Origin: Candidatus Polarisedimenticolia bacterium
GTDB taxonomy: Bacteria; Acidobacteriota; Polarisedimenticolia; Gp22-AA2; AA152
DNA length: 64,000 bases
Direction: 5' to 3'
NCBI GenBank assembly: GCA_036004685.1
Contig: DASYRE010000019.1
Location: 1 to 64,000 of the forward strand
Below are positions 1 through 53,647 of this stretch, in pieces. The notes beneath the pieces are model-generated. The model made no database searches. It was not told where the DNA came from and worked only from the letters and a program-made list of their open reading frames with translations. The translations under genes were made by a program, and so were the position numbers. Within the stretch, counting starts at the first letter, position 1. Each line of letters begins with the position of its first letter.

Positions 1-138
1 CGCTGAGGTCGCCGAGGCGCCCGGATCGCAAGGCGCGCCAGAGCGTCGCGTACCCAAGGCGGTACGCAAGCGAGGCGCAACGCGGCGAGCCGGGATGGAT
101 CGGGGGCCGAATGTAACATGATTTTTGAGACGCGACAC
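1..138 (+). repeat. MITE-like inverted-repeat element, copy A (left end outside window)
   Basis: This stretch aligns along its length with the elements at 15864-16029 (reverse orientation) and 53484-53647. Shared blocks are gaggcgcccggatcgcaagg, the hairpin GCGTACC-CAAGGC-GGTACGC, and the right end atgtaac...gacgcgacac. The left terminus lies before the window. The right terminus abuts a TA (139-140), and the TAG stop of the minus-strand gene next door is made of that TA plus the element's terminal base. Confidence 0.8.
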
Positions 139-3100
139 TAGTTGACCGAGCCAACGTCGCTTGTCCGTAAGAGGACGAAGGTGCAAGACGACTCGGTCGG
201 TTTTTGCACCTTTCGACACGCCAGGATCCCGCGGCGGATGATGCGCGCGTCGCCCGGCTCGGGAAACTCCATCTTGAAAGCGACTTTCTTCAGCGACTCT
301 CCCAGAGGCTTGAGTGTCTCGTCGCCGCGGATGAACCGGACTTCCGCGACCTTGGGTCCCGGCACCAGGGCCACGAAGAAGTCGGCGTCGCCTTCGCCTT
401 GCGCCCCGGGAACCGAATAGGAACGAAGATTGCTCAGTCGTTCCTGAATCCCGTTGAGATTCGTCTGCACCTTGCTCTCTCCTACCAGAGCGACCAGGTG
501 CTTCCTGCCCTCCGGATGGGGCGAGAAGGCTTCTGCCGCGAACGCGTAATACTGCAGCGCCAGCTCCCTCTTCCCCGTTCGCTGGTACGCCTGTCCCAGG
601 CGATCGGCCGTCAGGCCTTTCTGGGACAATTCCCATGCCGCGGTGAGGTAGCGCAACGCCGAGGTTGTGTCGCCGGCCTGGAAATGGACCCATCCCAGGG
701 TGTCCCAGCACACCGCGAGAAGCTCCACCATGGCCAGGTACTCCCGTCCCAGACCCTCGAGGCGCGCCTTGCGCAGCACGGACGTCACGGAAGCCACCGC
801 CGATTCCGCGTATTCCTTGGCTTGGTCGAGGTGGATCTTCTTCTCCGCCAGCTCGGCGGCGACATGGTTCAATACGATGGGGGACGGCTCGAGCTCGACC
901 GCGCGGCCGAAGGATTCCTGTGCCTTCTCCGGCTTGTTCAGCCTCATCTGCACGGAGCCGAGCTCCATCTGGAGCAGCGCGTCTTCGGGCGTGATGGAGG
1001 CGCCTTTTTCGAGTTCCGGCTCCGCCTCTGCGAACTTCTCCTGGTCCAGCAGCAGCATCCCCAGATTCCGATGCGCGTACTCGTCGAGCGGGACGATTTC
1101 GATCTGCTTCCGATATGCCCGCTCGGCCTCGTCATAGCGTCGCCGGCCGCTATAGACTTGACCCAGATTGTTATAGGCCTCGGGGCTGTAGGGATCGAGC
1201 TCCACCGCTTTCTTCAGTGCCGCTTCGGCCTTGTCGAGCTCCAGGAGCTTGAGGTAGGAGCGGCCGAGATCGTTGTACGCCGACTTGTGGGCCGGCTCCG
1301 CTTTGATCAGTCGCTCGAGCAGGTTGACGGAGGTTTGATACTCGCGGTTCTGATAGGCGGCGTCTGCCGCCTCCAGGAGCTCGTCGGACTTGCCTCCTTT
1401 CAGGTCGCCGGATCCGGCGCCCTCCTTGACTTTGACCGCGACCTTCTGCTCGGTGTCCGCGATCACCGCGCGGCGAAATGCCTGGAAATCGCTCCGTCGC
1501 GCCCCGGGCAATTCCTCCACTTGCACACCGAGGATGCGCTCGCCGGTCACCGTCGATCCGTCGATCTGGTACTTCGAGGCGTACTGCCCGTAATCGCGCT
1601 TCAGGTCGACCGCCAGGGGCAAGTGCATCTCGAACTGTCGAGGGACCTGCAGCTTCAGGTGGTATTCGAGATGAACGGACCCCAGAGTGATGGGCTCACC
1701 CTCAGCGATATCATCGGGATCGATGAGCTGCAACTGGCTGAATGGAAGCGGGAACGCCGCGTCCTTGCCGAAGGTATTGAAGTAGTTCAGCTTGGTGATA
1801 TGGAATCGGTACTCCAGAGGCTTGGACGTATCGGTGAGGGAGGAGAATTCCGGCTCGGAGATCTCCCCTTCGATCCCGGCGGAAGAGGCCATGTATTCGA
1901 GCATCTCCTTCCACTTGGATTGCGGGATCGCGCGCGCGCCCAGGCGGCCCAGGACTTCGAGGTCACCGCGGAACGTGAGCCGAACGTCGGCCTCCAGCGT
2001 CCCCAGATCGTTCAAAGTCCCTTCGATCGTCGTCGCCATGGTGTTCGGGATGGCGGGATCGGCGGGAGTTCGCCGCAGCTCCGACTTGCCCTCTCCGGCC
2101 ACCACCAGGGACTCCTTCTTTCGCACCGGAGGCAGCAGCATCCGGAAAGGAGCCAGCTCGGTGGTCGTATCCAGCCAGATCTCCTCATCCCCTAGCCGCA
2201 CGAAGCTGATGACGTGATCGAATTGCTGCGGGGAGGGAAAGTCGGCGTCCACCTTGTGGGTGGCGGACGTCAACGCGGCACGCAGGTGGAGTCCGGCGGC
2301 CTCCCCCATGGCCGCCAGCAGGGTGTGCTTGTCCTTGCAGTCGCCGTACTGGTTTCCGAAGACTTCGGCGGCGGCATGGGGCTGATATCGCCCGAGCCCG
2401 AAGGAAAGACTGACGTACCGGTAATTCTGCGCGACGTACTGGTAGATCGCGCGGAGCTTCTCCAAGTCTCCGGCGGCCCCTTGCGTGATCTCCCTGACCT
2501 TTGCCGCGATGGCCTCGCTGGGAAGACGGCGGTCGCGCTCGAGCTTCGCGTACCAGTCCCCGACCTCTCCCCAGTTCTTGAACGTGCTGACCTGCACCGC
2601 GGGGCTCTCCGGCTCCTTCTTCGGCTTTCGTTTCTTGCCGCTCGTCGGCGCGTCGTCCCCCGCCTCCAGGTGCGCGGTCTTCCATTGATAAACTCGCCGT
2701 CCGTCGGCCTCGCTCACCTGTGGCTTGAATTCGGGGCGGGTTTTGACGTTCACATACTTGGCGGTGGGCAAGTCGACTCGGAGCTCTTCGTTCCTGACGA
2801 TGACGGAGCGATTGAAGTCGTAGGCCCACCAGAAATGATTCGGCTCCAGGGGCGCAAGCTGATCGAACTGAAGCTCATATTCCAGAATGTCTCCCGGGCG
2901 GAGCGATGGGACGACGATGTGTTTTTGTCGGATATCGCTGTACATCGGCGCGAACTGAGAGATCGGCGAGGACATGTCCTGGACGGCGCCTGCCGGAATC
3001 TCGACCCGGGTCCCGTCCGGCTTGACGACGCGGCCTTTGATGGCGAGCCGCTCGAAATCGGAGTTATAAGAAAGGACCACCTGTCCGAATTGCCGAACCC

Positions 3101-3308
3101 CCCCTTCCGTCTGGACGAGGATGCGCATTTGGACGGTCTTCGAGCCGGTTCCGTCCGCTTCGAAGCGGACCGAAGTCTTCTGCGTCTCGATGATGATTGG
3201 CTCGCGGGAGAAGTCCGTGGGGGAGGGCTTGGCCGGCGCGGTTTGCGCCATGGCGAAAGGCGCCATCAGCCAAGCAAGAACGAGAACGATTCCTGCCTTG
3301 AGTCCCAT
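138..3308 (-). CDS. Secreted DUF3857 / transglutaminase-like / TPR protein
   Basis: The start at 3308 gives a clean Sec signal peptide (MGLKAGIVLVLAWLMAPFAMAQ); an in-frame ATG pair at 3362/3359 is an alternative. The mature protein begins with a DUF3857 beta-domain (about residues 35-240). A transglutaminase-like fold follows, with a visible triad: Cys324 in QYGDCKDKH, His365 in DHVISF and Asp380 in WLDTT. The C-terminal half carries at least five TPR repeats (from about residue 650). DUF3857 plus transglutaminase proteins are common in Bacteroidota and Acidobacteriota; the catalytic role is unproven and the substrate unknown. The TAG stop is formed at the edge of a repeat element. It is likely periplasmic or surface exposed and transcribed alone. 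Confidence 0.88.
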   Translation of the reverse strand: MGLKAGIVLVLAWLMAPFAMAQTAPAKPSPTDFSREPIIIETQKTSVRFEADGTGSKTVQMRILVQTEGGVRQFGQVVLSYNSDFERLAIKGRVVKPDGTRVEIPAGAVQDMSSPISQFAPMYSDIRQKHIVVPSLRPGDILEYELQFDQLAPLEPNHFWWAYDFNRSVIVRNEELRVDLPTAKYVNVKTRPEFKPQVSEADGRRVYQWKTAHLEAGDDAPTSGKKRKPKKEPESPAVQVSTFKNWGEVGDWYAKLERDRRLPSEAIAAKVREITQGAAGDLEKLRAIYQYVAQNYRYVSLSFGLGRYQPHAAAEVFGNQYGDCKDKHTLLAAMGEAAGLHLRAALTSATHKVDADFPSPQQFDHVISFVRLGDEEIWLDTTTELAPFRMLLPPVRKKESLVVAGEGKSELRRTPADPAIPNTMATTIEGTLNDLGTLEADVRLTFRGDLEVLGRLGARAIPQSKWKEMLEYMASSAGIEGEISEPEFSSLTDTSKPLEYRFHITKLNYFNTFGKDAAFPLPFSQLQLIDPDDIAEGEPITLGSVHLEYHLKLQVPRQFEMHLPLAVDLKRDYGQYASKYQIDGSTVTGERILGVQVEELPGARRSDFQAFRRAVIADTEQKVAVKVKEGAGSGDLKGGKSDELLEAADAAYQNREYQTSVNLLERLIKAEPAHKSAYNDLGRSYLKLLELDKAEAALKKAVELDPYSPEAYNNLGQVYSGRRRYDEAERAYRKQIEIVPLDEYAHRNLGMLLLDQEKFAEAEPELEKGASITPEDALLQMELGSVQMRLNKPEKAQESFGRAVELEPSPIVLNHVAAELAEKKIHLDQAKEYAESAVASVTSVLRKARLEGLGREYLAMVELLAVCWDTLGWVHFQAGDTTSALRYLTAAWELSQKGLTADRLGQAYQRTGKRELALQYYAFAAEAFSPHPEGRKHLVALVGESKVQTNLNGIQERLSNLRSYSVPGAQGEGDADFFVALVPGPKVAEVRFIRGDETLKPLGESLKKVAFKMEFPEPGDARIIRRGILACRKVQKPTESSCTFVLLRTSDVGSVN

Positions 3309-3517
3309 GGCGATACTGCAAGTCGGATCCGGAGCCGAATCTCGGTATCGATCGGACATCATGAAGACCCGCCTCGGCCGTCCGGAGCCGGACTCAAGAG
3401 AATCCCTGGCAGCATGCAGGGGTAGGGACGATACGCACGGACAGAAGCTGGAGCTTCTCGGAAATCCGTCAGGATCCCGGGCGTCGTGGCCTACGCTCTG
3501 ACTCTGAATGAGCGGCC

Positions 3518-3526
3518 ATTCTAGCA
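3518..3526 (-). promoter_or_regulatory. Candidate extended -10 promoter for the DUF3857 gene
   Basis: On the minus strand the sequence reads TGC-TAGAAT, an extended -10 with a good hexamer (TAGAAT at 3523-3518). No convincing -35 is present, as is usual for extended -10 promoters. It would leave a leader of 150-200 nt before the start codon. Confidence 0.4.
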
Positions 3527-3584
3527 CTGCGCCGCCCGGCCCGGCCCAAAAAGTTCAACACTGTCGGCTTCCCGATCCGCGAGG

Positions 3585-15863: not shown

Positions 15864-16029
15864 GTGTTGCGTTCCCGAAATCTCGTTAACATCGAGGCCG
15901 TCGATCCATCCCGGCTAGCTGCGTTGCGCCTCGCTTGCGTACCGCGTTGGGTACGCGGCACTTCGGCGCGCCTTGCCATCCGGGCGTCTCGTCGGCCTCG
16001 ATGTTAACGAGATTTCTGAAACGCAACAC
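15864..16029 (-). repeat. MITE-like element, copy B (complete, 166 bp, 37-bp terminal inverted repeats)
   Basis: Termini at 15864-15900 and 15993-16029 are inverted repeats matching at 35 of 37 positions and begin GTGTTGCGTT. Within it, GCGTACC (15937-15943) and GGTACGC (15950-15956) form a 7-bp hairpin. The right end is flanked by TA. It encodes no protein. Read as reverse complement it aligns with copy A (1-138) and copy D (53484-53647). It fills the gap between the selB 3' end and the tatA promoter. Confidence 0.9.
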
Positions 16030-16084
16030 TATCGCTGCGTCTCCGCCGCGGGGCCTCATTTCCCGGGCGGCGCGCGGGAAAGCC

Positions 16085-18007
16085 TCAGGCGGGAGGAGGC
16101 AGGATGCGGCGGAGATTGCCGTCGCGGCGGGTGACGCGGATGGCGTCCAGATGCTCCAGAAGCGGGATGGCGTTCTTGCGGGTCGTGCCGGAAAGGTCCT
16201 TGAAGCGGGCGATGTCGATCGTCTCGGAAGTCGCCCGATACTCCCAGATCCGGCGCTTCAAGGAATCCAGCGCCTCCCGATGGAAGACGACGCCCTCCTT
16301 GATCCGGACCAGGGAGCCTTGCTTCAGGAGAAGGAAGAAGAGCTCCTCGATCTTCTTGCGGGGAAGATCGAGCTGGGAGGCGACCTCCTCGAGCTCCGGG
16401 GGGTTCAGCCCGGCGGATCGAAATCTCTCCTCCAGCCTCCGAGCGGCGCCCGCCTCCGCGCCCTGAAGAGAAACCTGATGCCCGTGAAGCGCGACGATCT
16501 CCCGTTCCACCTTGAGACGGCTCCGGCGCACGACCTCTTCGAGGAAGAACTTGAACACTTCGGGCGGCTCGCGGCGGAAGAACCGCGACCGGACCTCCTC
16601 TTTCGGCAGTCCGAGATGGAGCGGATTGGCGCGGTGGAAGGCCCCGACCGCCCGGATCACCTCGTCCTGGAGAACGGCGAAGCCCTCGCCGGCGAGGAAC
16701 CGGGGAGGATCCGCCGGAACTTTCAGGATTCGCCCGGCGCCGAGATCGGAGGCCAGGCTGTCGAGGAGGGCGGCAGGCGAAAGGCCGGTCCGGGCGCGCA
16801 GCGCGCCGAGGTCCAGTCCCGCCCGGCCGGCGCCGCGGATCAATTCGCGCAGGCGGACGGCAGGATCGGGGTCCTTCAGGCGCTCCCAGCGCTCCCGCGC
16901 CGCGGCGATTTCCGCCGCGCGCAGCTTCCTCGGGGCGTTGTCGAGGACCATCCCCCCGCCGACGGTGGCGGCCGGAGAAGGACGCCTCAGGATGAAGCGA
17001 TCGCCCGGCAGCGCGGCGACCGGCTTCGAGAGCCGCATCTGAGCCGGGGCCGATTCGCCCGGCTCCAGGCGCTCGATTCCGGCCAGGCGGATCCTGCCCA
17101 TGACTTCGGCCGAAAGCAGGTGGAACCGGACCGAGCTCTGATCCTCGATGCCCTCCCCCGGAAGAGCCTCCAGCCACACGTCCAGCAAGCGCGTCGGAGC
17201 GAAGGCGCCGGGAGAGGCCAGGAGGTTGCCGCGCACCACCGCCGAGGTTTCGACCCCCTGAAGGTTGACGGCGGTGCGCTGCCCCGCGGCCGCCTCTTTG
17301 CAGGAGGCGCCGAAAACTTCGAGGCCGCGCACGCGGGCCACCCCGCCGTCAGGCAGGATCTCCACCTCGTCTCCCACCGCGACCTTCCCGGAGATCATGG
17401 TGCCGGTGACGACCGTGCCGAAACCGCGTATGGAGAAGGAGCGGTCCACGGGCAGGCGGAAGACCATTCCGGCGGAGCGCGGCGGGACCCGCGAGGCGGC
17501 TTCGCCAATCGCCCGCTTCAGCTCCTCTATCCCCACTCCGGTCTTCGAGGAGACGGGAAGGATGGGAGCGCTCGCCAGGAACGACCCCTCCAGGAACTCG
17601 CGGACCTCCAGGCGCACGAGATCCAGGATCTCCGGCTCCACCAGGTCCGCCTTGGAAAGGACGACGATGCCGGCCGGAATGCGGAGAAGGCGGCAAATCT
17701 CGAAATGCTCGCGGGTCTGGGGCTTGATCGACTCGTCGGCCGCGATCACCAGAAGGACGAGGTCGATTCCCCCGACCCCCGCCAGCATGTTCCGGACAAA
17801 GCGCTCGTGCCCCGGAACGTCCACGAACCCCGCCAGGATTCCCTCGGGAAGCGACAGGTTCGCGAAGCCCAGGTCGATCGTGATGCCGCGCTCTTTCTCC
17901 TCTTTCAGGCGATCGGGGTCGGTGCCGGTGAGGGTCTTGACGAGCAGGGACTTGCCGTGGTCGATGTGGCCGGCGGTCCCGACGACGACACGGCGTGGGA
18001 TGGACAC
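16085..18007 (-). CDS. selB: Selenocysteine-specific elongation factor SelB
   Basis: 640 residues with the canonical SelB plan. The GTPase domain carries the P-loop [11 protein letters not shown] (10-20), switch motifs [12 protein letters not shown] and [10 protein letters not shown], and the guanine-specificity motif LSKAD. EF-Tu-like beta domains 2 and 3 follow, with the [12 protein letters not shown] signature. Four winged-helix repeats at the C terminus recognise the SECIS hairpin in mRNA. SelB delivers selenocysteyl-tRNA to UGA codons, so this organism should decode some UGA as selenocysteine. selA, selD and tRNA-Sec are not in the window. It lies 7 bp after the first DUF507 gene and is probably cotranscribed with the DUF507 pair. 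Confidence 0.95.
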
Positions 18008-38155: not shown

Positions 38156-38932
38156 ATGGCCTTCACCGATTCCCACACCCACCTGACTCTCGATGCGTTC
38201 GACGCCGATCGCGACGCCGTGATCGCCCGCGCCCGCGAGGCGCTGCGCTACGTCTGCACCATCGGCTCGCTGGCCCGCGACGCCGAGGCGGCGCGCGATC
38301 TCTCCGAGCGCCACGACTTCCTCTACTGGACTGCGGGACTGCACCCGCACGACGCCAAGCTCTGGGAGCCCGACTCCGCGGCCCGTCTGGAGTCGCTCGC
38401 CCGCCACCCGCGCCTGCTCGCCATCGGCGAGATCGGCCTCGACTACCATTACGATCATTCCCCGCGCGACCGGCAGCGCGAGGTGTTCGCCGAGCAGATC
38501 CGCCTCGCGCGTCGCCTGCGCCTGCCGATCGTGATCCACACGCGCGAGGCACACGACGACACGCTGCGCATCCTTGACGTCGAAAAGGCGGAAGAAGTCG
38601 GAGGGGTCTTCCACTGTTTCTCAGGCAACGCCGAGATGGCCCGCTTCGCCGTCGATCACGGTTTCCGCATCTCGTTCTCCGGAAGCCTCACCTTCAAGAA
38701 CGCCGAGGAGCTGCGCGAAGTCGCCCGCAGCGTCCCGCCCGAGCGGCTCCTCACCGAGACCGATGCACCCTTCCTCTCCCCCCACCCCCACCGCGGCAAG
38801 AGAAACGAGCCCGCCCGCGTCCTCGAAGTGGTGACGAAGCTCGCCGAGCTCCACGCCATGAGCCCGCAAACGATGGGCGACCTCACCACCCGGAACTTCG
38901 AACAGGCCTTCCCGCGACTCCAAGCATCCTGA
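38156..38932 (+). CDS. tatD: TatD family metal-dependent deoxyribonuclease
   Basis: 258 residues of the TatD amidohydrolase family: FTDSHTHLTLDAFD at the start, AIGEIGLDYHYDHSPRDRQREVF, the VIHTREAHDDTL strand, GVFHCFSGN, and LLTETDAPFLSPHPHRGKRNEP. All metal ligands (HxH, E, H, H, D) are in place. TatD proteins are 3'-5' exonucleases or aminoacyl-tRNA proofreaders. It begins 8 bp after metG, a conserved metG-tatD pairing in many bacteria. The downstream gap holds a remnant repeat terminus. Confidence 0.95.
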   Translation: MAFTDSHTHLTLDAFDADRDAVIARAREALRYVCTIGSLARDAEAARDLSERHDFLYWTAGLHPHDAKLWEPDSAARLESLARHPRLLAIGEIGLDYHYDHSPRDRQREVFAEQIRLARRLRLPIVIHTREAHDDTLRILDVEKAEEVGGVFHCFSGNAEMARFAVDHGFRISFSGSLTFKNAEELREVARSVPPERLLTETDAPFLSPHPHRGKRNEPARVLEVVTKLAELHAMSPQTMGDLTTRNFEQAFPRLQAS

Positions 38933-38984
38933 GCAAGGCTCTTCTCGGACTCCCAGGAGATTCCTCGGGGATGCATCGGCGTCC

Positions 38985-39014
38985 GGATGTAACGGGATTT
39001 CTGGGACGCGACAC
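38985..39014 (+). repeat. Solo terminus of the MITE-like family, copy C
   Basis: The 30 bp here match the right ends of copies A and B (gatgtaac-g-gattt-c-tg-gacgcgacac), followed by TA. No other part of the element is found in the adjacent DNA, so it is a truncated remnant. It ends two bases before the stop codon of the minus-strand matrixin-like gene. Confidence 0.7.
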
Positions 39015-39016
39015 TA

Positions 39017-41569
39017 CTAAGGGCAGGTGGCGGTGAGGGAGGACTTGGGGCGCTCCGTCGAGCCGCCGGCGGCGGTGCGGGCGAACCCGAGGCTCCCTTC
39101 GCCGACCGCATTACGTCCCGTGACGAGGTAGTAGAACCCCGAACCTAGGGCTGGAACGGCCGGATCCGCCGCCAGGGGCGCGGTCAGGCCGCAGGCGAGC
39201 GGTGAGCCGTAGCTGTCCGCCAGCCCGTCGAGGTTGGAATCGGTGAGGGGCAGACCGCCACGATACAGGTTGTAGGTGGAGGAGGCCGGATCGGCGGACC
39301 ATATCAATTGGGGGCCGGCCCAAGCCAGCGACGAGCCGGGCGCTTGCTCGGGGGGCGCCGCCGTGGGGACGATGACGAAGGCCCCGCTGAGCGCGGCCTT
39401 CCGGGTGGAGGTCTGGATGAAGATGCTCCGGGGGCCGGGCGCCGCCGACGCGTTGATCGCGGTGGACATGGCGAAGAGATCGATCCCGTCCACGGTCGTC
39501 GCGAAATCGGAGCCGGGGGAATTCACGAGCGTCACGCCCGCGCCCGACACGTTCATCGAAAGCGTCGGATCGTTCGGAATGCCGGGCCCTCCCACGAGGA
39601 GATCGAAAGTGGTGCCCTGAGTGAAGAACTTCGGAAAGATGTCGGCCGTCCAGAGGGGATCGTCGAAGCCCTGCCCGAGGGCGGCTGTGCCGCTGTAGAT
39701 CGCGTTCATCGAATCGGTGCCGATGTGCAGGTCGTAGAAAGCGCTGGCGCCGGCTCCCGAGGCTGCCGAGACTCTAAGATAAAAGGTCGCCGGAAGCGGC
39801 CCCACTGCCATGCCGGCGAAGGTGAAATCGATCAGGCTGTCAAGATTGGTCGGAGAGCCGCCGATGTCGGTGTTCACCGCCAGCTGCACGCCGTCGGAGC
39901 GGAACAGGGTCAGCGTCGGGTTCAAGGTCGATCCGGCGCGGTTGGCCGAGACCTCCGCGATGATCCGATCCCCGAAGCCGGCGCTGAAGCTATAAAAATC
40001 GACGTCCCCCGAGGTGATGATGATGCCGCCCCGATGCTGGCCGATCGCGGCCGCATCGGCCGCGGCGATGCTGTTGTTGTCGTTGGTGCCGACGATGTCG
40101 ACCTCCGGGATCGCCTTGTTGACGTGCAGGGTGTAGAAGAAGCCGGGACCGCCGATCGGCGGGTCCCCACCTGCGAGATTGCTGAAATCCTCGACCCGGA
40201 CGAAGAAAGTGCCGGTCGCCGCCAGGCGCCGGACGATGCGCGAATCGGGCTGTTTCCCGAGGAAGTCGTCGTTCTGCACGATGGTCGTCGTCCCGTCGGT
40301 GGAAATCAGCGTGATGACCGGATCGAGCGGGAAGCCGTCGCCACTGCCGTCGCAGTCGATGCTGATGATGTCGCCCGTCACGCCCGGGAAGCTGAAGAAG
40401 TCGAGATCGCCCGCCGGATTGCTGATCCCCGAGGTGAGCGCCTCCAGGGCCACCGGGTTCGCCGCGCCCGAAGTGTTGTTCGCCTCGGTCTCGGCCCCGT
40501 AGAGATTCCCCAAGTTGACGTCGTTGCCCGGCGAGTTCGCTCCCGCCACTACGGGAATGAGTGACGGCGACGCATTGCCGCCGACGAACGTCGTCACGAA
40601 CGCCGTGAAGGCGTTCATCGAGTCGCTCTGGCTCAGGTCCTGCTCGACCGTAACGCCGTCCAGGGGCTCGGCATAGACGTTGTAGCTTCCCGGCGCCAGG
40701 ACGGGAAGCGTGTAGGAGCCGTCCAGCCCGGAGACGTCGCTGACGACGGCGGCGCCGGTCGGATCGAGGGCCACCACGTGCGCGCCGGGCACGGCGAGGC
40801 CCCCGGAAGTCCGGACCGCCCCGGTGATGCTTCCGGTGACCAGGCTCAGATCTCCGTCTCCCGCCTGCAGTCCGGCGATTCCCGCTCCGGCGGCCGTCTC
40901 CGGATAGACGAACGAATCGCCCAGCCGATCGTCCGGCGCGAGACTGCGCTGGAACTGCTCGCCGTCGGCGCCGACGGGGAACATGACCGCCGAGACGATC
41001 CCGGCATGATCCAAGCCGGTGACGTGCCCCAGCTCATGGGTCGCGATCCCCTGGATGTCGAAGGATCCCGCGGGAGTCGGGGTGGCGGTGGAGAACGGCA
41101 AGGTGCCATTGAAGATCAGATCGGCGTCGCTGATGATCCCCGTCGGACCGTCGATGTTCAGGAACGTGGCGGCGATGGCAGAGCTTCCCGCCCCGAAGAC
41201 GGCCCCCGTCTCGTCGAAAAAGATCGAATTCTTGCCGTCGCTCTGGTTGAAGGCGGTTCCCGTGCCAATCGTCGGGGTGGCGAAGACGAAGTAGTCGGTG
41301 CTGATCTGATTCCAGGCCTTTTGCCCGGCGATGATGGCGTCGTTGTCGCTGGTGTTGGGATTGGGGACGTTGTCCGAGCCGGCGGAGCTGATGAGCATCG
41401 GCAGCGGCAGGGAGCCCACGGGCCAATGCGCGGGGGGAGCGACCAGATTCAGAACGCGGATTAGAGTGAATCCCCGTCCGAGCGTGGCGGTGGCGAGAAC
41501 CAGAGCGGCGCCGAAGAAGATTATCCGTGCGGGGCGCCGGCGCCCCACCGCGGCTCCGGACGGTCTCAT
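39017..41569 (-). CDS. Large secreted matrixin-like metalloprotease
   Basis: 850 residues with a signal peptide (IIFFGAALVLATATL). The catalytic domain shows the metzincin zinc motif HELGHVTGLDH (ligands His178, His182, His188; Glu179 catalytic) and the Met-turn VMFP (Met196). A carboxypeptidase-regulatory-like domain (ITGAVRTSGGLAVPGAHVVALD...) comes next. Two pre-peptidase C-terminal (PPC-type) beta modules (GDLDFFSFPGVTGDIISI and GDVDFYSFSAGFGDRI) follow, then an IPT-like stretch. The last 90 residues are the same fibronectin-like end found in the subtilase at 9516-13121 (STYNLYRGG...GFYYLVTGRNAVGEGSLG...). It is coupled by ATGA to an upstream small secreted protein. Confidence 0.88.
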   Translation of the reverse strand: MRPSGAAVGRRRPARIIFFGAALVLATATLGRGFTLIRVLNLVAPPAHWPVGSLPLPMLISSAGSDNVPNPNTSDNDAIIAGQKAWNQISTDYFVFATPTIGTGTAFNQSDGKNSIFFDETGAVFGAGSSAIAATFLNIDGPTGIISDADLIFNGTLPFSTATPTPAGSFDIQGIATHELGHVTGLDHAGIVSAVMFPVGADGEQFQRSLAPDDRLGDSFVYPETAAGAGIAGLQAGDGDLSLVTGSITGAVRTSGGLAVPGAHVVALDPTGAAVVSDVSGLDGSYTLPVLAPGSYNVYAEPLDGVTVEQDLSQSDSMNAFTAFVTTFVGGNASPSLIPVVAGANSPGNDVNLGNLYGAETEANNTSGAANPVALEALTSGISNPAGDLDFFSFPGVTGDIISIDCDGSGDGFPLDPVITLISTDGTTTIVQNDDFLGKQPDSRIVRRLAATGTFFVRVEDFSNLAGGDPPIGGPGFFYTLHVNKAIPEVDIVGTNDNNSIAAADAAAIGQHRGGIIITSGDVDFYSFSAGFGDRIIAEVSANRAGSTLNPTLTLFRSDGVQLAVNTDIGGSPTNLDSLIDFTFAGMAVGPLPATFYLRVSAASGAGASAFYDLHIGTDSMNAIYSGTAALGQGFDDPLWTADIFPKFFTQGTTFDLLVGGPGIPNDPTLSMNVSGAGVTLVNSPGSDFATTVDGIDLFAMSTAINASAAPGPRSIFIQTSTRKAALSGAFVIVPTAAPPEQAPGSSLAWAGPQLIWSADPASSTYNLYRGGLPLTDSNLDGLADSYGSPLACGLTAPLAADPAVPALGSGFYYLVTGRNAVGEGSLGFARTAAGGSTERPKSSLTATCP

Positions 41570-50862: not shown

Positions 50863-52161
50863 ATGTTCGAGTCGCTGGTCATCACGCTGCGCGAGGGGAT
50901 CGAGGCCGCTCTGGTGGTGGGCATCATCCTCGGCTCCTTGCGCAAGTCGGGGCGGGAATCGCTCGGCCGATCGGTCTTTCTCGGCCTGACGACGGGGCTG
51001 ATCGCGAGCGTCGTCTGCGCCGCCCTCTTTTCCGCCCTGAAAGTCTCCGAGGAGGCCTACGAAGGCTACCTGATGATCGCCGGATCGTTCTTCGTGATCA
51101 CGATGGTCATCTGGATGTGGAAGACCGCCAAGGGGCTCAAGAAGGAGATCGAGACGAGGGTGGATAGGATCTCCCACCGCAGCGGCGGCGCGGTCGCCGC
51201 GGGGCTGTTCCTCCTCACGTTCCTGTTGGTCCTGAGGGAGGGAGTGGAGACGATCCTCTTTCTCGGAGCCGCCAATCTCACGAGCGACGCGCTGCTTTCC
51301 TTCTTCGGCGCCGCGGTCGGGCTCTCTCTGGCGACGCTCTTCGGAATCGCCTTCGTCCGGGGAACGGTGCGCGTCGATCTCGGGCGTTTCTTCAAGGTGA
51401 CCGAGATCGTCCTGGCCCTCCTGGCCGCGCAGCTCCTCATCGGCGGCCTGCACGAGCTGGGGGAGAAGGGGACGATTCCGGTCGGCGAACGGGAGATGCG
51501 CCTGATCGGGCCGATCGTGAAGAACGAGGTCCTGGTCACGGTGTCCTTGCTGGCCCTTCCCTTGATCATTCTTCTGGTTCCGGGGCGCGGCGACCGGGCG
51601 CGGGCCCAGAGCGCCGGCTCCCTTGAGGGGCCCGAGCGCCGGCTCGCCCTGGCCCGGATCCGCCGGGAGACCCTCTGGCGGCGCCTGCTGGCGACCGCCG
51701 GGACGCTGGTGATCGCCTCGCTCGCCGTCTCGTACGCCTTCTCGCGGCTGCCGCGCGGCATCGATCCTCCGGCGCTGCTGACGGCCGGCTCGGGCGGCGA
51801 AGTGCGCGTGCCGAAGGCGGGGCTCGACGACGGCCATCTCCACCGCTTCGGCGTCCGCCTCGAGGGGACGGTCGTCCGGTTCTTCGTGATGAAGTCGGGA
51901 GCCAAGCTGGTGGCCTCGTTCGACGCCTGCGAGGTCTGCGGGGCGTACGGCTACGTGGAGATCCGCGGACGGCTCGTCTGCCTGGCGTGTGCCGCCGACA
52001 TCAACGTGGGCACCCTCGGCGCGGGCGGAGGGTGCAACCCGCTGCCGCTCGCGTACCGCGAGGAAGACGACGCGATCGTGATCCCGATCGACGCGCTGGC
52101 CAAAGAAATCCCATCGTTCCGGGCGGCGGAGAAAACCGAGGCCGCCCCCCCCACCTACTGA
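50863..52161 (+). CDS. FTR1-family iron permease fused to a DUF2318 (Fe-S-type) domain
   Basis: 432 residues. The N-terminal 250 form an FTR1/EfeU-like permease with seven helices and two REGxE motifs (REGIE 10-14, REGVE 125-129) that bind iron. After a basic loop and one more helix (TLVIASLAVSYAF), the C-terminal 115 residues match DUF2318: FVMKSGAKLVASFDACEVCGAYGYVE with Cys356/Cys359, a second CLAC at 373-376, and GGGCNP at 391. In Campylobacter the P19 locus has these as separate genes (Cj1658 and Cj1660), so this is a fusion. The domain faces the periplasm. It precedes the permease pair. Confidence 0.92.
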   Translation: MFESLVITLREGIEAALVVGIILGSLRKSGRESLGRSVFLGLTTGLIASVVCAALFSALKVSEEAYEGYLMIAGSFFVITMVIWMWKTAKGLKKEIETRVDRISHRSGGAVAAGLFLLTFLLVLREGVETILFLGAANLTSDALLSFFGAAVGLSLATLFGIAFVRGTVRVDLGRFFKVTEIVLALLAAQLLIGGLHELGEKGTIPVGEREMRLIGPIVKNEVLVTVSLLALPLIILLVPGRGDRARAQSAGSLEGPERRLALARIRRETLWRRLLATAGTLVIASLAVSYAFSRLPRGIDPPALLTAGSGGEVRVPKAGLDDGHLHRFGVRLEGTVVRFFVMKSGAKLVASFDACEVCGAYGYVEIRGRLVCLACAADINVGTLGAGGGCNPLPLAYREEDDAIVIPIDALAKEIPSFRAAEKTEAAPPTY

Positions 52162-52175
52162 AGGCGGACATCTCC

Positions 52176-53480
52176 TTGTTCCTTCAGATCCTTCGCGATT
52201 CCCTCTTCCGGCAGAAGCGCCGCAAGGCCGTGATCCTCTTCTCGGTGGCCCTCGGCACCGCGGCCGCCGCGGCGCTGGGGAACATGGCGCTGGACGTGGG
52301 AGACAAGATGAGCCGGGAGCTGAAAGCGTTCGGGGCCAATCTCTCCGTGGTGCCGAAAGAAACGGTCCGCCCGGTCCGCATCGGCGGCGAGGACGTCTCC
52401 GCGCTGCGCGTCCCGTCCTATTTCGCGGCGGATCAGGTGCTCAAGGCGAAGGACAATTTCTGGAAGAACAACATCCTGGCCATCACCCCGGTTCTCGACG
52501 TCCGCGCCCGGGCGGCGGGCAGAGCGATCACCATCCGGGGAACCTGGTTCGAGAGGCGGATCGCGCTGGACCGGAAGGGCAGCGGGGAGTTCCTCACCGG
52601 GATCCGGACCCTGAATCCCTACTGGAGAGTGCAGGGGGATTGGCCGGACGACGGGACGGACGAGGGCCGGAATGCCGCGCCTGCCCAGGCTCTGGCCGGA
52701 TCGCGGCTCGCCGAGACGCTCTCGCTGCGGCCGGGGGATCGGCTGGACGTGGAGACGGAAAGCGGCCGGACGACATTCCGCATCGCAGGAATCCTCACCG
52801 GCAGCGACCAGGAGGACGAAGCCCTGCTCGCCCCCCTGGAAGCAGTGTGGCGCATGACGGGGGACGCCGGCCGCGTCTCCCGCATCCTGGTCAGCGCCCT
52901 GACCACCCCCGAGAACGCCGTTTACGAGAGAATGGGGAAGAACCCGAAAGACCTGCCTCCCGCCGAGTTCGAGAAGTGGTCCTGCACCCCGTTCGTGTCG
53001 TCGATCGCCTATGAGATCGAGCGCGCGCTTCCAGGCTCCGACGCGCGGGTGATTCGCCGGGTGGCCGAGTCGGAAGGGAGGATCCTGGAGCGGATCTCGG
53101 GGCTGATGATCCTGGTCACGCTGCTCGCGGCGCTGGGGGCCGCGCTCACGGTCACGAGCGCGCTGACGACGAGCGTGTTGGAGCGGCGATCGGAGCTCGG
53201 GCTCCTGAAGGCGATGGGCGCCGGGAACGCCAGGGTGGTCGGCCTTCTCCTGGCGGAAGCGGGCCTACTGGGATTGGTCGGCGGGTTGATCGGCGCGGGC
53301 GGCGGGGCGCTCCTGGCGCGTTGGCTGTCGCTTTCGGTCTTCGGGATTCCGGTCGGCATCCGGCCCCTTTCCATCCCGCTCGCCATCGCGGCCGCCCTGG
53401 TCATCACCTTCTCCGGCTGCGTCCTGCCGGCCCGCCGGATCATGCGACTTCGCCCCTTCGAGCTGCTCCGTGGCCTTTAA
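52176..53480 (+). CDS. FtsX-like ABC transporter permease of the iron operon (1)
   Basis: 434 residues from a TTG start 14 bp after the FTR1 gene. One N-terminal helix (AVILFSVALGTAAAAALGNMAL), a MacB-type periplasmic domain (MSRELKAFGANLSVVPKETV...) and three C-terminal helices in the FtsX pattern (LMILVTLLAALGAALTVTSALTTSVLERRSELGLLKAMGA, LLLAEAGLLGLVGGLIGAGGGALL, ITFSGCVLPARRIMRLRPFELLRG). The coupling-helix motif ERRSELGLLKAMGA contacts the ATPase. It corresponds to Cj1661/Cj1662 of the P19 system. The stop is followed 3 bp later by repeat copy D. Confidence 0.9.
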   Translation: MFLQILRDSLFRQKRRKAVILFSVALGTAAAAALGNMALDVGDKMSRELKAFGANLSVVPKETVRPVRIGGEDVSALRVPSYFAADQVLKAKDNFWKNNILAITPVLDVRARAAGRAITIRGTWFERRIALDRKGSGEFLTGIRTLNPYWRVQGDWPDDGTDEGRNAAPAQALAGSRLAETLSLRPGDRLDVETESGRTTFRIAGILTGSDQEDEALLAPLEAVWRMTGDAGRVSRILVSALTTPENAVYERMGKNPKDLPPAEFEKWSCTPFVSSIAYEIERALPGSDARVIRRVAESEGRILERISGLMILVTLLAALGAALTVTSALTTSVLERRSELGLLKAMGAGNARVVGLLLAEAGLLGLVGGLIGAGGGALLARWLSLSVFGIPVGIRPLSIPLAIAAALVITFSGCVLPARRIMRLRPFELLRGL

Positions 53481-53483
53481 CAC

Positions 53484-53647
53484 CTGTTGCGTCCTTGAAG
53501 TGACGTCGACGTCGAGGCCTTCGAGGCGCCCGGATCGCAAGGCGCGACGAGGGGCCGCCCAGCCGTGGCGGTACGCAAGCGGGGCGCGACACAGCGAGGC
53601 GGGATGGATCGAGGGGCGCAGGTGACGGGATTCCCGAGACGCGGCAC
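53484..53647 (+). repeat. MITE-like element, copy D, inside the iron operon
   Basis: 164 bp aligned with copies A and B: gaggcgcccggatcgcaagg, gcggtacgcaagcg-ggcgc, gcgggatggatcga-ggg and the right terminus. The central stem is kept with changed bases (CCGCC/GGCGG instead of GTACC/GGTAC), and the terminal repeats are worn. It lies between the two permease genes, 3 bp after the first and 37 bp before the second. Confidence 0.85.

Follow-up and report, generated by a model that had tools for sequence, protein, structure and literature searches.

The DNA stretch analysed here (the window, 64,000 nucleotides of contig C19) raises the question of what kind of element the 166-bp non-coding sequence at positions 15864-16029 is, and why this sequence and its relatives lie at the 3' ends of genes. 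The initial annotation had read it as an IS630/mariner-type MITE with 37-bp terminal inverted repeats and a TA flank. The sequence is present at these positions on the plus strand with 35 matches between its 37-bp arms, and represents a full-length MITE of an older subfamily, here called copy B. The left terminal inverted repeat is located at 15864-15900 (plus strand) and the right one at 15993-16029 (minus strand). The TA flank is found on the right side (16030-16031), as the target duplication within the family-wide flanks CTA-GTG...CAC-TAG, but not on the left side, where the sequence CCT is an eroded target duplication.

The left arm of copy B carries the sequence of the right arm, AACATCGAGGCC, at a place where the other aligned copies have TACATTC--GGCC or close variants, and the alignment shows that copy B is 2 bp longer than these copies owing to this arm. 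Elsewhere in the family the two arms agree at about 16-17 of 20 bases. Since the left arms of the other copies differ, the nearly perfect arms are a trait of copy B rather than of the family. They were probably made almost identical by hairpin-templated correction of a quasi-palindrome, in which the left arm was symmetrised to match the right one. The orthologous gap between selB and tatA contains no such copy in the sister genomes G001 and G002. A promoter-like site of tatA (TTGACA-17-TAGACT) begins 5 bp downstream of copy B, and this site is also present in the sisters. The gene that adjoins copy B at 16085-18007 on the minus strand encodes a SelB-type elongation factor, which implies that selenoproteins are synthesised in Candidatus Polarisedimenticolia bacterium. 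Nothing similar to copy B was identified in the phage and plasmid collections, and no RNA family in Rfam matched the window.

Both relatives previously placed at 1-138 and 53484-53647 were recovered, with slightly shifted borders. The former, at 5-138 (minus strand), belongs to a young subfamily, is 99% identical to the other young copies and is cut by the contig start, so that positions 1-134 of 164 remain. Its outer G and the target TA at 139-140 form the TAG stop codon (138-140, minus strand) of a gene for a TPR/transglutaminase-like protein of 1129 amino acids (138-3527, minus strand). The latter, at 53485-53647 (minus strand), is an old, degenerate, near-full copy located 4 bp downstream of a MacB/FtsX-like gene (51987-53480, plus strand). 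The solo end assigned to 38985-39014 is a one-ended old copy as proposed, but it reaches further, to 38968 (38968-39014, minus strand). It is followed by TA at 39015-39016 and is placed between a tatD-like gene (38156-38932, plus strand) and a convergent gene (39017-41569, minus strand). Three of the four copies in the window have TA beside an outer end, as had been observed, while the end at 53647 reads GA. No IS630 transposase gene is contained in the window, in line with the initial annotation.

A high copy number across the genome had been suggested from these four copies, and the searches of the genome (3.84 Mb in 62 contigs) bear this out. With copy B as the query, 50 matches were obtained, with 40 of 103 candidates scored and E-values down to 3e-82, and the end pattern TAGTGTYGCGTYYCNNAAATC with at most two mismatches gave 82 matches, compared with none for a reversed control pattern; the recurrence of the sequence is thus well beyond chance. 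Merged, the matches represent at least 65 sites, and all copy numbers given for the family are lower bounds; twelve background stretches of 20 kb were picked away from known matches and were consequently not used for copy density. The young subfamily is 164 bp long, and its 20-odd youngest copies are 98-100% identical. Identical young copies are found at 24 of the 124 contig ends, for example at C19:1 and at the ends of C45, C40 and C17, which explains the fragmentation of the assembly; these broken copies comprise twelve left and twelve right halves, as would be expected if about twelve identical repeats had blocked the assembler. The consensus ends, read inward, are GTGTCGCGTCTCCGAAATC (left) and GTGTTGCGTCTCAGAAATC (right), while the interior is variable, with versions of 61, 77, 148 and 223 bp as well as truncated copies. 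With a length of 164-166 bp, inverted ends, no coding capacity and too little space for a transposase gene, the element has the characters of a MITE. Several elements contain or adjoin a GC-rich module, GGCGGGTTGACCCGCGGCGGGTTTCTGCCGCCGGGTCCAAACC and variants of it (L060:760-840, L061:1570-1610, L064:1555-1605), as in mosaic repeats. The genome also contains a second MITE of roughly 210 bp (L006:1293-1502, on G000:C23), the ends of which match an IS630 element at G000:C34:340-1347. A copy of the 164-bp family (64187-64351) is located beside it, inserted at its flanking TA.

The flanks of the copies define the target site. In the first set of loci, searched with a loose pattern, 59 ends were flanked by TA and 44 of these by CTA; among the young ends that were fetched later, all ten were flanked by CTA, and young full copies are flanked by CTA on one side and TAG on the other. 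At G000:C54:91112-91275, a copy separates a cyclophilin-type gene from a convergent one, and both genes end in a TAG at the element. The orthologous site is empty in the sister genomes G003, G002 and G001. The shared stop of the two convergent genes is a single CTAG in G003 and G002, each strand of it providing one of the stops, and TTAG in G001; the occupied site reads AACTA-164 bp-TAGGC. The comparison at this one locus shows that TA was duplicated, that CTAG was the target and that both stop codons were restored, and it thereby supports the TA duplication of IS630/mariner type that had been proposed.

To place the ends relative to genes, coding sequence next to each end was scored with a codon-usage model derived from the window, and the frame in which a gene meets the element was determined; the gene calls depend on this home-made model, which was also applied to the other genomes. 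Coding sequence extends to the junction at 24 ends, and at all 24 in the frame where the flanking TA and the G of the element form TAG, although one of these, the decayed end L062:2752, now reads TAA. The junction at 138 in the window, with a nearby coding score of 6.7 relative to a cut-off of 10, was left out of these 24. Three of the ten ends in the later set from the same genome abut genes, again all in the TAG frame (27 in all), as do all 16 gene-abutted ends in other genomes of the phylum, and no gene was found to meet a junction in either of the other two frames. The bias toward gene 3' ends noted in the initial annotation is thus confirmed, and is largely due to insertion inside CTAG stop codons. 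Genes at the junctions often reach the end of a Pfam domain (Methyltransf_33 303/304, aconitase 463/463, Cys_Met 380/381, PdxA 286/286, ACR_tran 1020/1021, Response_reg 110/111) and are therefore not truncated; most of those that could be tested are full length. Together with the consistent TAG frame, this indicates that the element landed in C-TAG stop codons that existed before. At times, a single CTAG was the stop of two convergent genes, each of which regained its stop codon; the direct comparison with orthologues covers one stop-codon site.

Because the TAG makes use of the first base of the element, an insertion within a gene could also create this codon, and the elements might then have truncated longer genes and given them new stops. 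This is extremely improbable, since in the sister genomes the orthologues of the cyclophilin-type gene and of the gene facing it already terminate at CTAG, the domains of Cys_Met, PdxA and ACR_tran are complete at their junctions, and the other two frames are not represented. A different question is whether the transposase prefers CTAG at the ends of transcribed genes beyond what the CTAG rule and selection would give, with terminated transcription, hairpins or supercoiling as possible causes. The 24 stop-codon ends among the 59 TA-flanked ends exceed the share of about 17% predicted from CTAG in non-coding DNA (15 of 45 sites) by about 2.4 times (two- to threefold, p about 1e-5), so that the loss of insertions in coding sequence by selection may account for only part of the bias. 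However, a 304-kb sample of the genome contains 78 CTAG compared with 240 expected from a Markov model, a threefold under-representation, and 16 of the 78 are stop codons anyway (one of them made by an element), with 32 inside genes and 30 intergenic. Furthermore, selection against insertions in promoters would yield an equal excess, and a preference of IS630 for the TA in CTAG is already known, to judge from the title of Tenzen and Ohtsubo 1991, which is listed among the references of PMC2170065. An active preference of this kind is accordingly unlikely, and the wider proposal of a phylum-wide IS630-type group that actively homes to stop codons and heals itself even at a CTAG shared by convergent genes is doubtful. 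The excess that remains may stem either from selection against insertions in promoters or from a genuine preference.

The elements could alternatively have been domesticated, so that the hairpin in the transcript acts as a terminator or as an mRNA-stability element after stop codons, similar to REP or terminator-like repeats. The RNA fold is one long hairpin that is very stable (z = -4.9 for the young type and -10.8 for copy B), compensatory changes are seen in 9 of 53 pairs, and the elements are located after genes. Yet inverted repeats alone give a hairpin, and both the recognition of the ends and correction between the arms would be expected to produce symmetrical changes. The covariation, with a term of only -0.15 kcal/mol, is uninformative, as inverted ends also covary for unrelated reasons. 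The element does not end in a T-run (CAACAC-TA), and a scan for a GC hairpin followed by a T-run identified no terminator at copy B. The sister orthologues without copies and the truncated or decayed state of some copies are also as for selfish DNA, and we consider a domesticated function quite unlikely. The elements are instead very probably IS630-type MITEs that were moved in trans and inserted at CTAG, with the insertions in stop codons rebuilt and kept.

The transposase with matching ends that this reading calls for was found elsewhere in the phylum, but not in the assembly of the studied genome. In G233, from another class, a matching end is located 131 bp from an IS630 transposase gene. 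The autonomous element is 1165 bp long, has the ends GTGTTGCGTCTCGGAAAT and is flanked by CTA on both sides, and its protein of 371 amino acids matches NF033545 (IS630 transposase) with 266 bits relative to a cut-off of 100, and PF13358 with 67.5 bits. The left end agrees with the MITE ends at 17 of 20 positions, compared with 13 for the best of 1,340 TA-adjacent 20-mers in the window, while the right end matches less well (GTGTGACGTATCATAAAA). A similar IS630 element of 1.1 kb with related ends is present in G252, a single matching end in G146, and a related IS630 element with CTA-GTGTCC...GGACAC-TAG in G009, which belongs to the same order as the studied genome. The two IS630 genes of the studied genome were rejected as mobilisers, as one has the ends AATAGCGGTCA... 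and the other has no recognisable matching ends, and the IS630 loci of the close relatives gave no match apart from the GTGTCC type in G009. Judged from these sequences, the putative mobiliser is identified by its type (IS630), not as an individual gene. The copy number, the TA duplication and the ends shared with the G233 element support the classification as an IS630/mariner-type MITE.

The ends are present in 26 of 396 genomes of the phylum. Close relatives of the element occur in sister genera of the same family, and elements that share its ends but differ in the interior are found across the Acidobacteriota. A scan of GTDB with a strict end pattern identified a single related acidobacterial MAG, PMV_2.74 (G003), a relative from the same family that is identical to the studied genome at three copies. 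Other classes of the phylum contain MITEs of about 275 bp (L110 in G213, and L113-L115 in G249, G235 and G319), which share ends of the form GTGTCYCGTCCC(A/G)GGAAT and have unrelated interiors. L110 and L104 each lie between two genes that converge on the element and have their stops there.

This is a known kind of element, and the landing in stop codons is the interesting part. Among known systems, RUP with IS630-Spn1 and the Correia elements come closest, both likened here by description. RUP of Streptococcus pneumoniae, which is 107 bp long, has over 100 copies and is proposed to be mobilised by IS630-Spn1, is like the 164-bp family short, non-coding and present in many copies, with IS630-like ends and a TA target (PMC2229807). 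It differs in its unrelated host and in having no known shared sequence, and landing in stop codons was not found for RUP in the papers searched. The Correia/NEMIS elements of Neisseria (about 107-155 bp) have inverted repeats, terminal TA and hairpin transcripts in common with the family (PMC2229807, PMC10969869), but are mainly located upstream of genes and carry promoters (PMC10969869), whereas the 164-bp family is mainly found at gene 3' ends. Within the IS630 family, ISY100 duplicates TA upon insertion (PMC2170065); this duplication, seen in IS630 and ISY100, and the CTAG preference of IS630 are shared by the 164-bp element, which differs in lacking a transposase gene. The REP/BIME palindromes are also extragenic and close to gene ends, but REPs are 20-40 bp long (PMC3733652) and linked to tyrosine transposases (PMC2817692), while members of the 164-bp family have defined ends and duplicate TA. 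The open-access literature yielded nothing on insertion into and restoration of stop codons by such elements, which does not prove that no such report exists.

We suggest that an IS630-type transposase would act in trans on the ends GTGT(C/T)GCGT(C/T)TCnGAAATC, with the enzymology inferred, and that the element would insert between the halves of the duplicated TA at CTAG to give CTA-GTGT...ACAC-TAG, as seen in the flanks and at the empty site. As the outermost base of the element is G at each end, a TAG is rebuilt on either side when the CTAG target is part of a stop. CTAG is rare within genes and common at stops of the form NNC-TAG, so that insertions in stop codons, which would spare the protein, are kept, while those within genes would be lost; gene interiors are avoided by the insertions. 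Most of the pattern is accounted for by the CTAG target, the outer G and the selective loss of insertions that break genes. The young subfamily probably represents a recent burst, with its transposase now probably lost or encoded in the unassembled part of the genome, and an element transcribed as part of an mRNA would fold into a long hairpin behind the stop codon, with a possible effect on mRNA stability. These results offer a simple reason for how a bacterial MITE can reach a high copy number without harm to its host: the harmlessness rests on a target tetranucleotide that is rare in genes and enriched in stops, and on a first base that completes the split stop codon. This would also explain why small repeats gather at the 3' ends of genes.
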